Assembly: GCA_937883755.1 (NCBI GenBank)
Contig: CAKZYA010000020.1
Span: 1-52,825 of the forward strand
Source of the DNA: an uncultured Flammeovirgaceae bacterium
Lineage (GTDB): Bacteria; Bacteroidota; Bacteroidia; Cytophagales; Cyclobacteriaceae
Reading direction: 5' to 3'
DNA length: 52,825 nt
The stretch's first letter is position 1. The number at the start of each line of letters is the position of its first letter. Below are positions 4,466 through 47,339 of this stretch, in pieces. Made by a program: the position numbers and the translations under genes. The notes under the pieces were generated by a model, which was not told where the DNA came from, searched no databases, and saw only the letters and a list, made by a program, of their open reading frames with translations.

Positions 4466-5242
4466 ATGAATTATACGCTTAAGAATGTGCCCGAGCGTAC
4501 TACCAAACCTCGGGTCTCTGGCTATACTATGGCAATGGATAAAGGCTTAAGCCTACGAGAGGTTGAAGACTTTATTAGCGTAGCTGGAAATTACGTGGAT
4601 GTAGTAAAACTAGGTTGGGCTACCTCCTTCGTTACCCCGCAGTTAGAAGAAAAAATTACAGCCTACCATCAGGCGGATATTCCAGTGTACTTTGGTGGTA
4701 CTTTATTTGAAGCGTTTGTTGTCCGAGACCAGTTTGATGACTATCGGCGAATTTTAGATAAGTATAAACTATCGTTTGCTGAGGTGTCGGATGGTTCTAT
4801 TGAACTTTCCCACGATGAAAAGCTCCGTTATATTCAGGAACTTTCTCAGCAAGTAACTGTACTTTCTGAGGTGGGCTCTAAGGATGCCGCCAAAATTATG
4901 CCCCCTTATAAGTGGATTGAACTCATGCAGGCCGAATTAGAAGCCGGTGCCTGGAAGGTAATTGGCGAAGCCCGGGAGGGAGGAAATGTTGGGTTGTTCC
5001 GATCTAGCGGCGAAGTGCGCTCAGGGCTAGTAGAAGAAATTCTGACTAAAATTCCTTTTGAACGCATTATCTGGGAGGCGCCCCAAAAAGAGCAGCAGGT
5101 TTGGTTCATCAAATTGCTAGGAGCTAACGTGAACTTAGGAAATATTGCACCTAATGAAATTATTCCACTGGAAACCATCCGACTTGGCTTACGGGGTGAT
5201 ACATTTACCCATTTCCTGGATGAGAATAAGCAGACTTCCTGA
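4466..5242 (+). CDS. comA: Phosphosulfolactate synthase family (ComA/HSA32)
   Basis: A 258-residue TIM-barrel protein of the ComA family. The characterised archaeal enzyme adds sulfite to phosphoenolpyruvate to make phosphosulfolactate, the first step of coenzyme M synthesis. Family-typical segments are seen: KLGWATSF, YFGGTLFE, VSDGSIEL, SEVGSKD and the phosphate-binding EAREGGNVG. Bacteroidota do not make coenzyme M, so the role here is open. Sulfonate metabolism, including a supply of sulfonolipid headgroup precursors, is an inference; plant HSA32 members of the same family have a heat-tolerance role. The gene starts directly after the TPR stop and its TGA overlaps the ATG of the DUF368 gene by one base, so all three are probably one operon. 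Confidence 0.85.
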   Translation: MNYTLKNVPERTTKPRVSGYTMAMDKGLSLREVEDFISVAGNYVDVVKLGWATSFVTPQLEEKITAYHQADIPVYFGGTLFEAFVVRDQFDDYRRILDKYKLSFAEVSDGSIELSHDEKLRYIQELSQQVTVLSEVGSKDAAKIMPPYKWIELMQAELEAGAWKVIGEAREGGNVGLFRSSGEVRSGLVEEILTKIPFERIIWEAPQKEQQVWFIKLLGANVNLGNIAPNEIIPLETIRLGLRGDTFTHFLDENKQTS

Positions 5243-6201
5243 TGAATTATTTAAGAAAGTATGGGCCGCTATTCCTGAAGGGAGTAGCCATGGGGGGAGC
5301 TGATGTAGTTCCGGGAGTCTCAGGAGGTACGTTGGCATTTATTACCGGAATCTACGAACGTTTGCTAGATGCTATCAGCTCTTTCGACAAGGATGCGTTA
5401 CAGTACGCGTTAAGGTTCCGTTGGCAAGCCCTTTGGAAGCACATTGATGGCACATTTTTATTGGTATTGCTTAGCGGGATAGCGCTTAGTATTGCAACTC
5501 TGGCTAAGGTTATTCATTTTTTACTAGATGAGTACCCTATTCAGCTTTGGTCGTTCTTTTTTGGATTAGTAATTATCGCCGCTTACGTCGTTGCTAAAGA
5601 TATTTCTCATTGGCGTGGAAGTGTGATTATTGCTGGGGTCGTTGGAATTGCTATTGCTTACTTTATTACGGTAGCAACTCCTGCTCAAACTCCTACCGAT
5701 ACGTGGTTCATCTTTTTATCAGGGGCTATTGCCATTTGTGCTATGATCCTTCCCGGAATCTCTGGCAGCTTCATTTTACTAATTCTAGGTAAGTACGAAT
5801 ATATTGTTACTGCTTTAACCGAACTTAATTTGTTGGTTATTGCGGTCTTTGGTGCTGGTTGCGTAGTAGGGCTGCTTAGTTTTGCCCGCTTAATATCTTG
5901 GCTATTAGATCGTTTCTATAACACTGCTATAGCCTTACTAGCGGGATTCATGATTGGTTCACTAAATAAGATCTGGCCTTGGAAAGAAGTAGTTTCTACC
6001 CGAACGAATAGCAAGGGGGAAGAAGTACCATTTATCACTGAAAATGTATTACCCAGTGCCTATGAACAGGTTACCGGACAAACTCCGTATCTTGGTCAGG
6101 CTATACTATTTATGATAATTGGAGCCGGGGTGGTTTTAGCCATTGATTTGGTGGCTACCCGCCAGCAGAAAACAGATAGGGCAGTTAGCAATGTGCAATG
6201 A
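5242..6201 (+). CDS. DUF368 polyprenyl-phosphate translocase (PopT-like)
   Basis: A polytopic membrane protein of 319 residues with about eight hydrophobic segments. The start contains the hallmark GVAMGGADVVPGVSGGTLAFITGIYE region (residues 15 on), and the mirrored motif MILPGISGSF occurs mid-protein, as expected for the internal duplication of DUF368. Members of this family were shown to recycle undecaprenyl phosphate across the cytoplasmic membrane for cell-wall and polysaccharide synthesis. The C-terminal half carries a charged loop with KEVVSTRTNSKGEE before a last helix. It overlaps the upstream synthase gene by one base. Family assignment is secure; the transport role is by homology. 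Confidence 0.9.
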   Translation: MNYLRKYGPLFLKGVAMGGADVVPGVSGGTLAFITGIYERLLDAISSFDKDALQYALRFRWQALWKHIDGTFLLVLLSGIALSIATLAKVIHFLLDEYPIQLWSFFFGLVIIAAYVVAKDISHWRGSVIIAGVVGIAIAYFITVATPAQTPTDTWFIFLSGAIAICAMILPGISGSFILLILGKYEYIVTALTELNLLVIAVFGAGCVVGLLSFARLISWLLDRFYNTAIALLAGFMIGSLNKIWPWKEVVSTRTNSKGEEVPFITENVLPSAYEQVTGQTPYLGQAILFMIIGAGVVLAIDLVATRQQKTDRAVSNVQ

Positions 6202-38960: not shown

Positions 38961-39581
38961 TCATTTCATACTATTTTTGTAGACATCTATTACAAGATTA
39001 TCTAGTTTTTCTACGGTAATTTTTAGATAGTTAAAGAGGGACTTGCTAGGGTGTTGAATGAGGTCTTCATTTTCAATAACATTTAATAAACCTAATATTG
39101 TGGCTACTGGGCCTCTGAGAAGGTGGGAGTCACGATGTCTTATCTCCATTAGGGTATCTACTGCACCTTTTAACTGTTCCTCTAGGACTTTTAGTCTGGT
39201 AATATCTTCAGCAATACCTGCCATTTTAATAGCCTGACCCTGTTGGTCAACTTCAAAAATTTTGTATATGGTGTGGAGCCACACATAATGTCCTTCACCG
39301 TGTCGAATACGAAATACCTGATCAATCTTATCACCTAGTCTTGCCTGCTTCATCTTTAAAAAGTTTGACTTTACGGTTTCGTAATCATCCGGGTGGATAA
39401 TTTCTTTATAGTAATCGTGGCTCATTCGGATGAGCTCTTTTTTAGGTATACCGATAGTTTGAAAAGAGTCTTTCGTAGAAATTACTAGTATATCCTTAAC
39501 GAGATCATATATGTTATAGGCTAATGGGGAGATATCAATATAGGTTTCTAATAGACTTTGACTGTTTTTAGATTCATTCAT
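38961..39581 (-). CDS. PAS protein ending in a kinase dimerisation helix, no ATPase
   Basis: A 206-residue signalling protein. Residues about 25-130 are a PAS domain with the C-terminal PAC pattern (HGEGHYVWLHTIYKIF, then AGIAEDITRLKVLEEQL). Residues about 140-206 form a histidine-kinase dimerisation segment with an H-box-like DSHLLRGPVATILGLL, where the His would be the phospho-acceptor. The protein stops there, without a HATPase_c domain. Nothing like an ATPase domain follows in the 100 bases downstream. It may be phosphorylated in trans by another kinase or act as a dimerising sensor. It diverges from the AraC-type gene. Confidence 0.82.
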   Translation of the reverse strand: MNESKNSQSLLETYIDISPLAYNIYDLVKDILVISTKDSFQTIGIPKKELIRMSHDYYKEIIHPDDYETVKSNFLKMKQARLGDKIDQVFRIRHGEGHYVWLHTIYKIFEVDQQGQAIKMAGIAEDITRLKVLEEQLKGAVDTLMEIRHRDSHLLRGPVATILGLLNVIENEDLIQHPSKSLFNYLKITVEKLDNLVIDVYKNSMK

Positions 39582-42743: not shown

Positions 42744-43574
42744 TTATTCCAAAGCAGTTGTATCAGTAGCAATTCTCCTGATCTCCTTTAGTAAAAGGGG
42801 ATAAGCAGGCTCCGTCATACCGTGACCGTAGCCATCCAGTTCGTAGAGCTTGGTGTCGGGGTGTCCGACTACCTTCATCATTCGCATTAGGTAGGCATTT
42901 TCTTCGTAGCGACCCAGTAGCTCTAGTTCTCGGTCGCCAGTGATGAGGGTGAGGGGAGGGGCATCCGCCCGAACGTGGTACAGTGGGGCTAGATCGTCTA
43001 CGATAGGCTGCGTACCCGGTATACCGCGTTCCTTACGCACGGTGAAGTGGGTGATGGTATGCCCACTGAATGGAATAAGCCCCGCAATCTGGTTAGCATC
43101 AATGCTGTGCGGTTCTAGCCAACGTTTGTCCAGCCCAATCATACTAGCCAGATAGCCCCCAGCCGAGTGCCCCGAGGCGAAGATCTGCGTAGAGTCGCCA
43201 CCCAAGCTGTTGATATTATCAAATACCCAAGCGACTGCCGCAGCGGCATCTTCAATATAGATAGGAGCTTTTACTTTAGGATATAATCGGTAGTTTACCG
43301 CCACTACGGCTACTCCCTGCTGCCGAAGAGCCTCATCAATATGTTTATTGCCGCCCGTCAGCCCACCCCCATGAAACCAAACCACTGTAGGGTAACCCGC
43401 TGTATTCTCAGGATAATAAACATCCAGCACACATCGCTCACTGATATACGCATCGGACTGATTGATAGAATCGGAGTAGTAATGAATGTTTTGCTTTGTC
43501 TCGTATTCAGTCTCTTGTGTTTGGGCTAAACTGTTGTATCCGATAAGTAGTAGAAATGAGAGAAGATATTTCAT
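42744..43574 (-). CDS. Secreted alpha/beta hydrolase (HSL/BD-FAE-like esterase)
   Basis: A 276-residue secreted esterase with signal peptide (LLLIGYNSLAQ). The oxyanion motif is HGGGLTGGN, the nucleophile motif GHSAGGY, the Asp lies in TGDRELELLGRYEEN and the His in GYGHGMTEPAY. This suits carboxylesterases of the HSL or feruloyl-esterase-like type. Downstream is the AAATCCCC palindrome. Its start lies 33 bases from the end of the truncated KAP gene. Confidence 0.9.
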   Translation of the reverse strand: MKYLLSFLLLIGYNSLAQTQETEYETKQNIHYYSDSINQSDAYISERCVLDVYYPENTAGYPTVVWFHGGGLTGGNKHIDEALRQQGVAVVAVNYRLYPKVKAPIYIEDAAAAVAWVFDNINSLGGDSTQIFASGHSAGGYLASMIGLDKRWLEPHSIDANQIAGLIPFSGHTITHFTVRKERGIPGTQPIVDDLAPLYHVRADAPPLTLITGDRELELLGRYEENAYLMRMMKVVGHPDTKLYELDGYGHGMTEPAYPLLLKEIRRIATDTTALE

Positions 43575-43607: not shown

Positions 43608-43868
43608 TTACCAAGAACCATCTTTAAAGTCATTTTCCCAGGCATTAAAGCATACGGTCTGGTACTCTTTGCCTTTTAAGTCCTGCTCCCACATCTTAAC
43701 AAATGTAGTCTTGCCAGTTCCCCATTTATTATTGATGGCTAGCACAAATCCATCATCATATAGGTTTACTATACCTGTTAGAACATCAGCATATTTCTGC
43801 CTACCTAGTTTACAATTAGTGAATGGATTATCGGGTATTATCTCAATTTCAGTATGCTTAATACTCAT
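43608..43868 (-). pseudogene. Truncated KAP-family P-loop NTPase
   Basis: Only the first 86 codons are present. They show the KAP start DNPFTNCKLGRQKYADVLTG, the Walker A motif NNKWGTGKTTF and FNAWENDFKDGSW, at which point the frame ends in TAA. KAP NTPases are normally several hundred residues, continuing from FNAWE into the Walker B domain and membrane insert. The remainder is missing, and the esterase gene starts 33 bases further on. It is therefore a remnant. KAP proteins include phage-exclusion and membrane-signalling types; none can be assigned here. Confidence 0.75.
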
Positions 43869-44269: not shown

Positions 44270-44800
44270 TTAAAAAAAGAGAGGGGGGGTAATCGATATA
44301 TATGATGGTTGAGGTGTAGCAGTATTTCCGGCATCTATCAGTTGTTGTAATGAAGGAGCTGGAGGGTGGGGAAAGGTAGCGAAGTAAGATGAAAACTTTT
44401 CCAGAATACTCTGTACAGAGCGCACTGCACACTCCTTACCGTAAAGACTTTTATTCATTTTAATCAGTACATCGGTTAGTACTTTCTCTAGATTGACAGT
44501 TACCATACGCTGAGAGGGTAAATAGCGCATATGCCAACTAGCAAACCGCCGTTCATGACTAAAAGGGAGATGCATTACCTCGAGGATGGTATGCCGGACG
44601 TCAGTCGTAATAAAACCCATTAATTCATCAAGTGCCTTTTTTTCTCCTTCTATATACTGAAGGAACTGATCGTCATAGTAACTAAGGAATCCGGTTATAG
44701 AGAGTTGAGAATTTCGGAGGTAAGCCTGATTGGCTAGGTTGCGAATAGAGAGCTCATCGAAGGACTGGGTAGCCTGGCTCACATAAACTAAGGAATACAT
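44270..44800 (-). CDS. BLUF blue-light sensor, copy 1
   Basis: A 176-residue protein from ATG 44798-44800; a TTG at 44830 would add ten residues ahead of the conserved MYSLVYVSQATQ and is rejected. Residues 1-95 are a BLUF (FAD blue-light sensor) domain. Tyr6, Asn30, Gln48, Trp89 and Met91 stand at exactly the spacing of the photocycle residues Tyr21, Asn45, Gln63, Trp104 and Met106 of AppA. Residues 96-176 are helical and Pro-rich at the end (ATFPHPPAPS). No output domain is fused, so it should signal by protein contact. It is the last of three tandem copies and shares a 120-bp identical tract with copy 2. Confidence 0.92.
   Translation of the reverse strand: MYSLVYVSQATQSFDELSIRNLANQAYLRNSQLSITGFLSYYDDQFLQYIEGEKKALDELMGFITTDVRHTILEVMHLPFSHERRFASWHMRYLPSQRMVTVNLEKVLTDVLIKMNKSLYGKECAVRSVQSILEKFSSYFATFPHPPAPSLQQLIDAGNTATPQPSYISITPPLFF
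44477..44596. repeat. 120-bp tract identical to 45312-45431 (in BLUF copy 1)
   Basis: Base-for-base comparison shows no difference over 120 bases between this segment and 45312-45431. A second identical stretch of 39 bases follows after a short diverged gap (ending at TTTCTCCTTC-TA in both). Sequence on either side differs at many silent and coding positions. Confidence 0.93.
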
Positions 44801-45143
44801 AACAAAATAATTTAGCTCGAGGGCATCCAAAAATAAAGAAAATTTTCTAGGAAAAACATAGCTGGATTATTTTTCCCCGAATGTTCCTATCTATGGGACG
44901 GGATATTAAAGGCTTTAGTGAAATATTCTATCTAAAAGAAGAAAGTATTACTTTGGATAAAATATTATCACATATAACCCACATTAGTATGATTTTCTTT
45001 CGTTTTGTGGAAATGTATTTGGGCTTAAGTGACAGTAAAATAAATCATCGTTAGAAATAATCTGTAACAGCTAAAGCAGATAGACTCCCTTAAGGTTTCT
45101 TTAAAATAAAAGAACAGGGGGAAGGTATCCAAGGATACTGGGA
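44801..45143. other. Spacer between BLUF copies 1 and 2
   Basis: No gene is seen in 343 AT-rich bases. On the minus strand TATTTTTG at 44828-44835 fits the TAnnTTTG -7 box, 28 bases before the copy 1 ATG, so copy 1 may have its own promoter. No terminator hairpin was found for copy 2. Confidence 0.4.
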
Positions 45144-45635
45144 TTAAGGCGTAAAATTACTACCAGCTTTTAGTAGTTGTTGGGATGAAAGAGTGGGAGG
45201 ATGGGGAAAGGCAGCGAAATAGGTTGAAAACTTTTCTATAATACTCTGTACAAAATAGATTGCCCGCTCTTGGCCGTAGAGGCTTCTATTCATCCTAATC
45301 AATACATCAGCTAGTACTTTCTCTAGATTGACAGTTACCATACGCTGAGAGGGTAAATAGCGCATATGCCAACTAGCAAACCGCCGTTCATGACTAAAAG
45401 GGAGATGCATTACCTCGAGGATGGTATGCCGATTGTCAGCCGTAATAGAACCCATTAATTCATCAAGTGCCTTTTTTTCTCCTTCTAAGTACTGGAGAAA
45501 CCGACCATCATAATGACTAAGAAACCCAGTGACAGATAATTGTTCATTACGCTGGCAAGCCTGTTTTACTAGCGCCTGGATAGAAAACTCGTCAAAATCC
45601 TGAGTAGCCTCACTAATATATACTAAAGAGTGCAT
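45144..45635 (-). CDS. BLUF blue-light sensor, copy 2
   Basis: A 163-residue BLUF protein starting MHSLVYISEATQ at ATG 45633-45635. Tyr6, Asn30, Gln48, Trp89 and Met91 are all kept, so it should bind FAD and show the BLUF photocycle. The helical tail (VLADVLIRMNRSLYGQERAI) resembles copy 1 closely. The first 60 residues differ from copy 1 at many sites, whereas residues about 68-107 are identical at DNA level, a sign of conversion between the two copies. It is the middle gene of the triplet. Confidence 0.93.
   Translation of the reverse strand: MHSLVYISEATQDFDEFSIQALVKQACQRNEQLSVTGFLSHYDGRFLQYLEGEKKALDELMGSITADNRHTILEVMHLPFSHERRFASWHMRYLPSQRMVTVNLEKVLADVLIRMNRSLYGQERAIYFVQSIIEKFSTYFAAFPHPPTLSSQQLLKAGSNFTP
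45312..45431. repeat. 120-bp tract identical to 44477-44596 (in BLUF copy 2)
   Basis: Partner of the tract in copy 1. It encodes the end of the BLUF core including the RRFASWHMRY segment and the start of the helical tail. Even third codon positions are identical. Confidence 0.93.
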
Positions 45636-45747
45636 GACGATCCAATTTAGGATATTATATACGCAAGTAAAGAAAAACTACTAAGAAAAGCTTACCAAAA
45701 GGAAATAAATTGTTTTACTATTGGTAAGCATCATTCTCCAGGTGCAC

Positions 45748-46212
45748 TCAAGGCTCATCGGATATTAATATAGGAATATGGGGAAAATCTGCATAATAAT
45801 TAGAAAGCCTATCCAGAATACGATGTATTACGCCGATGACTTTTGCTTTGCTGTAGGCTGCGTCATCTATTTTTAGTAGTGCATCGGCTAATAAATCTCC
45901 TAATCCAATAGTAGCCCCTTCTTGTAAGAGTAAGTATCGCATGTGCCAGGTAGTAAACCGTCGTTCGGGTTTAAATGGTAGATATATTATCTTAAGATCA
46001 GTATGGCGACTATCGGCTTTAATATTATTCATTAAGTTGCTCAGAGGGTCTTTTTCTCCTTCAAGGTACTGTATAAAGTGTCCATCGTAATAATTAAGAA
46101 ACCCAGTTACCAATAGTTTTTTATTGCGCAAGTAGGCTTGGCTGGCAAGTTTATGGATGGATTGTTTATCAAAATCCTTAGTAGCTTGGCTAACGTAAAT
46201 CAAAGAGTCCAT
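45748..46212 (-). CDS. BLUF blue-light sensor, copy 3
   Basis: A 154-residue BLUF protein starting MDSLIYVSQATK. Tyr6, Asn30, Gln48, Trp89 and Met91 are all kept at the same positions as in the other two copies. It is clearly more diverged (for example NNIKADSRHTDLKIIYLPF), and does not share the identical tract. The tail is helical (LADALLKIDDAAYSKAKVIG) and ends ADFPHIPILISDEP. It is first in the direction of transcription. The three copies suggest separate or combined blue-light signalling through unknown partners. Confidence 0.93.
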   Translation of the reverse strand: MDSLIYVSQATKDFDKQSIHKLASQAYLRNKKLLVTGFLNYYDGHFIQYLEGEKDPLSNLMNNIKADSRHTDLKIIYLPFKPERRFTTWHMRYLLLQEGATIGLGDLLADALLKIDDAAYSKAKVIGVIHRILDRLSNYYADFPHIPILISDEP

Positions 46213-46364: not shown

Positions 46365-47339
46365 TTATTTAATCAATTTGTTTAGAGTCATACGAGAAAC
46401 TTGAAAAGCTGTGCCGTGCCGCATTCCTTCTGGATGTACTAACTTTTCAGATTCATCAGTCCACTTTACTAAATCGGGTGAGGTCATAATTCCGTACTCT
46501 TGTTTGCGGTAACGGTCAAAGTATAGGCACCAGAGAGAATCCACTTGAATTACCGTAGGACCTTCTACCCAGTCGCCACCACTAATGGGGTTGGTAGGAA
46601 AAGAATACGGGCCAGTGGCAGAAGTGCTAAAGGCCATCCGGATATTCTTCTGCGGGCTGAAGGGGCGATTGGTTTCATCCTTCATAAACATCACGTATTG
46701 CCCCCGGTTTTCAATCAGCGAAGCATCAATTACATTGAAGCCCCGCTCATAGAAAAGCTGGGTATCAGAAAAAGTCTTGAAGTCGGTAGTGGTAGTGTAG
46801 TACATCCGGTGGTTGTTACCCGGGGTAGGTGGACCTTCATCACTTTGATTATCAGTATCAGGGAAACGCCCCGGGATAGTGGTGGCCCAGAAAATTAGAT
46901 ACTGCTGCGTAGCTTCATCATAAAACAGCTCAGGTGCCCAACAATTCTTGGCATCGGGCTCGTGCTCCATCACGGGAACATACTGCTGCTCTGACCAATT
47001 GATTAAGTCGGGTGAGTGGGCGTAGCCAATGCCTTTCTCCTTCCAGCTCACCGTCCATACCATATGAAACTCCCCGTCGGATCCGGTGATAATGCAAGGG
47101 TCACGCATGAGTTTATCTTCTCCCACCTCCGGTTGTAAAAACGACTTTCCGTTATTTAGTGCTGTCCAGCTAAAGCCATCCTCGCTGTACGCCAGATGCA
47201 AACCATCTTCCCCGTTTTCGGTAAAGTAAGAAAAGAGATACACCGAATCTGAAGCAGACGCTATTTGGGCGTAAGAAGCTATCTGAATAAATATTGAGAC
47301 AATCAGGAAAAGAAGAATGGAAAGCCAGCGTATATGCAT
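46365..47339 (-). CDS. Secreted GH43-like five-bladed propeller glycosidase
   Basis: A 324-residue secreted protein with a signal peptide (FLIVSIFIQIASYAQ). The mature part is a five-bladed propeller of the GH43/GH32 superfamily, with repeated blade words such as GLHLAYSEDGFSWTAL, YAHSPDLINWSEQQ and MTSPDLVKWTDESE. Likely catalytic acids are in LMRDPCII, CWAPELFYDEATQQY and YVMFMKDETN. It may act on arabinose- or xylose-containing glycans. It lies upstream of BLUF copy 3 on the same strand with a 152-bp gap, without sign of a shared operon. Confidence 0.85.
   Translation of the reverse strand: MHIRWLSILLFLIVSIFIQIASYAQIASASDSVYLFSYFTENGEDGLHLAYSEDGFSWTALNNGKSFLQPEVGEDKLMRDPCIITGSDGEFHMVWTVSWKEKGIGYAHSPDLINWSEQQYVPVMEHEPDAKNCWAPELFYDEATQQYLIFWATTIPGRFPDTDNQSDEGPPTPGNNHRMYYTTTTDFKTFSDTQLFYERGFNVIDASLIENRGQYVMFMKDETNRPFSPQKNIRMAFSTSATGPYSFPTNPISGGDWVEGPTVIQVDSLWCLYFDRYRKQEYGIMTSPDLVKWTDESEKLVHPEGMRHGTAFQVSRMTLNKLIK

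Follow-up and report, generated by a model that had tools for sequence, protein, structure and literature searches.

Why would a bacterium carry three short BLUF photoreceptor genes side by side, none of them with an output domain of its own? The window analysed here (the whole stretch of DNA, 52,825 nucleotides) contains three consecutive BLUF genes at positions 44270 to 46212, all on the minus strand and thus transcribed in the order C, B, A: copy A (44270..44800, 176 aa), copy B (45144..45635, 163 aa), and copy C (45748..46212, 154 aa), the most divergent of the three. A domain search, whose failure would have refuted the original prediction, gave a BLUF match (Pfam PF04940) for every one of the proteins, with 81.1 bits for A (E 6.5e-23), 87.2 bits for B (E 7.9e-25), and 86.7 bits for C (E 1.2e-24) against a cut-off of 25 bits, covering profile positions 1-91, 1-91, and 3-91, respectively, of 92. 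The triplet is real. The account that we regard as likely overall is that of three intact short BLUF genes that arose by tandem duplication, with gene conversion between A and B, and whose products would act as switches for an unlinked regulator.

The start of copy A was set by homology at the ATG at 44800, rather than at the upstream in-frame TTG at 44830, which would add ten residues that are absent from the other copies. Counted from this ATG, copy A aligns with B and C such that all three proteins contain Y6, N30, Q48, W89, and M91, the predicted set of photocycle residues known from AppA. At the protein level, copy C is ~50% identical to both A and B, and it aligns without gaps through the BLUF domain with the structures of AppA and Tll0078 (PixD), so the spacing of these residues is the same. 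Keeping all five is the family norm, as 51 of 53 aligned BLUF open reading frames do so (the 54 that were found, minus the one at locus L013). By analogy, A, B, and C each probably bind flavin. Beyond BLUF, neither Pfam nor NCBIfam gave any family above its cut-off in the three proteins, in agreement with their description as BLUF-only proteins that lack an output domain; short BLUF proteins normally have none.

A shared helical tail of about 60 to 80 residues had also been proposed, and the lengths after residue 92 come close to this (84, 71, and 62 residues in A, B, and C). In a structure model of copy B, the only copy that was modeled, from an input of four sequences (A, B, C, and one Sulfitobacter protein), strands and helices succeed one another as in BLUF domains, and after them come predicted tail helices at residues 98-118 and 122-141 as well as an ill-defined one at 151-158. 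The mean pLDDT of the model is 69, with 60-71 for the blocks of the tail helices and values below 50 at residues 87-102, 145-150, and 153-163. When this model was searched with Foldseek, the best 50 rows were BLUF structures (photoactivated adenylate cyclases, AppA, PixD, and BlrP1), at E values of 6e-7 to about 1e-5 and at TM-scores by query length that were modest, 0.42-0.54. Given the BLUF-like model and these matches, the tail is most simply read as the two C-terminal helices typical of short BLUF proteins rather than as a new domain.

The surroundings of the array place it at a locus that is shared within the genus. Upstream of copy C lies a gene for a GH43-type glycoside hydrolase (46365..47339, minus strand; Pfam), and downstream of the array lies an esterase gene (42744..43574, minus strand; Pfam BD-FAE). 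The same-genus genome G003, assembled in 4 contigs, contains a single BLUF gene flanked by the same GSDH and GH43 genes, and the same-genus genomes G001 and G002 each contain a single BLUF gene adjoining GH43, although these assemblies are fragmented (880 and 530 contigs), so that further BLUF copies there may go unseen. In all three relatives, the BLUF gene comes after GH43 in the same orientation, at a gap of 70-84 nt compared to 152 nt here, and GH43 and a WG-repeat gene recur in 4/4 same-genus genomes, this one included. Downstream of the BLUF gene of G003, a remnant of the esterase C-terminus can be found (27 residues, 67%, E 4e-6), with a weaker one in G001 (21 residues, 48%, E 0.016), which suggests that the esterase was probably ancestral at this locus and was later lost there. 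Between the array and the esterase lies a truncated KAP ATPase gene (43608..43868, minus strand; Pfam KAP_NTPase, E 3.3e-9) that matches positions 1-83 of 464 of the PADLOC model PDC-S20 (E 5.1e-42). This fragment, a candidate remnant of a phage-defense gene, had no counterpart in loci L036-L040.

The control regions of the array could not be traced, since none of 36 pairs of flanking intergenic stretches scored so high that two or fewer of 200 shuffles reached the score. Promoter-like sites numbered 5 versus a mean of 8.8 in shuffles, terminator-like sites 0 versus 2.0, and the Bacteroidetes-type promoter pattern that we assumed as search motif had 2 matches in the window versus 2.1 expected, none near the array. 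A few kilobases away, a stand-alone PAS protein of 206 aa is encoded at 38961-39581 on the minus strand; we considered it as a LOV sensor and rejected this, as its sole structure match was a PAS sensor domain, with no LOV-type match. Pfam also finds a type IX secretion tail in the window, together with TonB-dependent receptors that have a carboxypeptidase-like domain, which suggests a member of Bacteroidota.

For the ancestry of the copies, we built a maximum-likelihood tree of 50 BLUF proteins, i.e., the 54 open reading frames found minus L013 (at a contig end), L032, and both long proteins of L046; loci that overlapped others (L001-L006, L028, L030, L033, and L035) were skipped, and L041 was also left out. 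In this tree, A groups with B at a support of 100/98, and A, B, and C group together at 100/96. Next to them, at a support that is not firm (87/86), stand the single BLUF proteins of G003 and G001, and a clade of 12 (100/99) sets the array and these relatives apart from the other 38 proteins. The triplet accordingly looks like a lineage-specific tandem amplification, a history that is fairly well supported by tree and synteny: One gene just downstream of GH43 would have given rise to three copies by tandem duplications, with copy C splitting first and A and B separating afterward. The copies are, however, only 42-48% identical to the BLUF proteins of G003 and G001, whereas GH43, WG, and GSDH are 81-89% identical to their counterparts in the same genomes. 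Either fast evolution at the locus or replacement of the original by a related gene, for instance from an unsampled relative, may account for this. The GC3 of the copies is lower as well (0.32-0.40, compared to 0.44-0.50 for GSDH, WG, and GH43), which fits weak constraint or a foreign origin too.

Copies A and B bear a further mark of their shared history. Over codons 69-108, a tract of 120 nt is identical between them (44477..44596 in A and 45312..45431 in B, both on the minus strand), with 0 of 120 nt differing, while 95 of all 489 aligned nucleotides differ; identity is 74.0% before the tract and 74.5% after it. No codon permutation of A and B produced a run of this length: 0 of 20,000 exceeded 70 nt, the longest run being 70 nt, and a repeat of 5000 gave a longest run of 78 nt. 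Protein constraint does not explain the tract, as codons for the same residue are identical in 36 of 36 cases inside it, compared to 30 of 46 and 24 of 35 outside. The tract is best read as a recent gene conversion between A and B, in which at least 120 nt would have been copied, and this reading is strongly indicated; a small chance stays that it is an assembly error. Outside the tract, A and B are 68% identical over 123 codons, with dN 0.20, dS 0.95, and dN/dS of about 0.2, so both proteins are under constraint. No sign of conversion was seen between A and C or B and C, where the longest identical runs are 12 and 13 nt, and among eight other adjacent BLUF pairs only that of G399 (L045), with copies that are 90% identical, gave a weak sign (3 of 5000 permutations). 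The A/B tract amounts to a naturally occurring swap, and it shows the part that two copies can exchange.

The same genome contains a second BLUF locus for comparison. The only other BLUF matches lie at G000:C22:52903-53605 (L036:5892-6606), where two adjacent copies are both broken: One contains a frameshift and a stop, and the other ends after ~54 residues next to a transposase-like gene with an integrase core. Of the seven query proteins, the one that matched this locus best comes from the second BLUF gene of G002, at 87% identity across the 54-residue piece. Tandem copies thus arose at two loci, one of which decayed, so the keeping of copies is not guaranteed. From this precedent one could argue that the extra copies are passing redundancy, that the array is heading for the same decay, and that the three copies have no selected role; the frequency of tandem duplication for a small gene, the low GC3 of the copies, and the differing copy number of relatives all fit. 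We consider this unlikely, given that the three frames have stayed open with all five photocycle residues in place and that the divergence of A and B outside the tract (a dS near 1 at a low dN/dS) spans too long a time for unselected frames to stay open.

The opposite position, that the copies are specialized parts of a mixed oligomer or dose-tuned sensors whose output surface is kept alike by conversion, draws on where the tract lies. In the copy B model, it takes in approximately strand beta4, W89/M91, and the beginning of the first tail helix, and recombination might keep this output segment (beta4, beta5, and the start of alpha3) alike in A and B but let the flavin-binding half and the tail drift apart, as the lower identity of the remainder would suggest. 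If such active homogenization took place, differently tuned sensors would continue to signal to a single partner or a single mixed oligomer. We find this distinctly doubtful, because one tract is one event whose position may be chance, copy C takes no part, and a weak conversion sign appears in just one of the eight adjacent pairs elsewhere. Less probable still is that the array stems from, or was exchanged for, DNA of a different lineage in which several copies already existed. The gap in identity between the copies and their flanking proteins, the lower GC3, and the adjoining truncated defense-type ATPase would fit such an origin, but the three copies are mutually closest in the tree and stand beside same-genus genes, the position beside GH43 is conserved, and no closer relative appeared among the matches listed; a contig-collection search gave one distant Sulfitobacter match at 35%.

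How unusual is such an array? In a phylum sample of 392 genomes that are at least 90% complete, 47 had a BLUF match (46 above the cut-off), and 30 of these 47 had one match while 17 had two or more rows. Adjacent BLUF genes (two or more on the same strand within 1.5 kb) were present in 6 of the 47, this genome included, whereas a tight intact triplet was seen in this genome only. A family sample of 390 genomes queried with copy B added at least four further genomes with pairs (G560, G568, G620, and G706). The tree contains eight adjacent pairs: The two members group as sisters with support in five of them and nearly so in a sixth, but are not each other's sisters in the other two. In an order sample, BLUF occurred in 145 of 391 genomes, and among the matches listed there were 16 other genomes with at least six BLUF matches (6 to 13 rows each, fragments included). 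One of these, G1043 of genus g69 in the same order, has 13 matches, fragments included, four of them being BLUF genes on one strand within ~10 kb (G1043:C2:90584-100750); the genus has both clusters and divergent pairs. The idea that several BLUF genes in one genome are out of the ordinary consequently stands for the phylum at large, where most BLUF-bearing genomes have one, and gives way where adjacent pairs recur and where G1043 reaches its 13; the proposed search for tandem arrays in related genomes likewise returned pairs and no second tight intact triplet in the sample. Among the literature matches listed, no title concerned a tandem BLUF array, though one may still be in print. Because short BLUF genes in tandem are found repeatedly across the phylum, the triplet is a clear-cut local amplification of a familiar photoreceptor type and not a new system.

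What the receptors act upon would then lie elsewhere in the genome. Judging from characterized BLUF proteins, illumination with blue light would reorganize the hydrogen-bond network at Tyr6, Gln48, and the flavin, the change would pass via strand beta5 (W89/M91) to the C-terminal helices, and the altered helices would change the binding to a separate partner protein. No partner gene had been evident next to the array, and neighbor analysis found none either: In a scan of 267 open reading frames, in which most loci extend just ~1.5 kb to either side, every family that adjoined BLUF in three or more genera was a broad one (oxidoreductases, kinase-like, and regulator-like proteins), and the recurrence of GH43 and WG was confined to the same genus. 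Two known partner or output domains were searched for by profile. PixE carries DUF4388 (PATAN), and EAL is the partner or output domain in the PapB-PapA and BluF systems; DUF4388 (PF14332) had 0 matches in this genome with 3 of 14 control genomes positive, and EAL (PF00563) had 0 matches with 6 of 14 positive. A MarR-family regulator was considered as partner and rejected, with no match in 4/4 same-genus genomes (4/9 positive overall).

The partner is probably encoded elsewhere and is perhaps a transcription regulator. With its additional copies, the cell most likely makes more sensor or gains slightly retuned versions on the same output, as blue-light switches for this unlinked regulator. In genome G214, two adjacent BLUF proteins of ~480 aa are encoded (L046:2902-4350, 4549-6000), the first with an AraC-type HTH ahead of its BLUF domain and the second missing one of the five photocycle residues, or poorly aligned there; the former hints that BLUF output in the phylum can be transcriptional. 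In two genomes of genus g13, a MarR regulator and a GFO/IDH/MocA oxidoreductase adjoin BLUF (L052:4704-5171 and L054:4511-5101, the latter by similarity). The genome of the array also encodes a microbial rhodopsin (G000:C61:170499-171161; PF01036, E 1.9e-42; 0 of 14 controls positive), so the organism is probably exposed to light. Few partners of short BLUF proteins have been identified, and a genome that retains three intact receptors but gives no match to DUF4388 or EAL offers a reasonable starting point in the search for a new one.

Among known systems, the array can be compared with the short BLUF paralogues of Acinetobacter, such as BlsA and the four genes of A. baylyi. As far as the accessible portions of these reports go, Acinetobacter genomes carry one to six short BLUF genes, ascribed to duplications and losses (PMC3554667), three short BLUF proteins jointly affect twitching (PMC4844311), and the three BLUF genes of A. 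nosocomialis lie in separate contexts (PMC9020721). These paralogues differ from the array in belonging outside Bacteroidota, and the same portions mention no conversion tract. Closer in descent, genus g69 resembles our genome in having many BLUFs per genome, but the four of G1043 are kilobases apart, compared to three within 2 kb here. PixD (Slr1694/Tll0078) is built like the array proteins, with a BLUF core and C-terminal helices and without an output domain; its structures 2hfn, 1x0p, and 8i98 were fold matches to the copy B model, and Tll0078 aligned ungapped with copy C. The PixD-PixE pair differs in that the array genome lacks a match to the DUF4388 of PixE and has three tandem copies. 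The BLUF domain of AppA, finally, has the same photocycle residues, an ungapped alignment, and a fold match; AppA continues into more domains after BLUF (the chain of structure 4hh0 comprises 406 residues), whereas the three proteins of the array stand alone.
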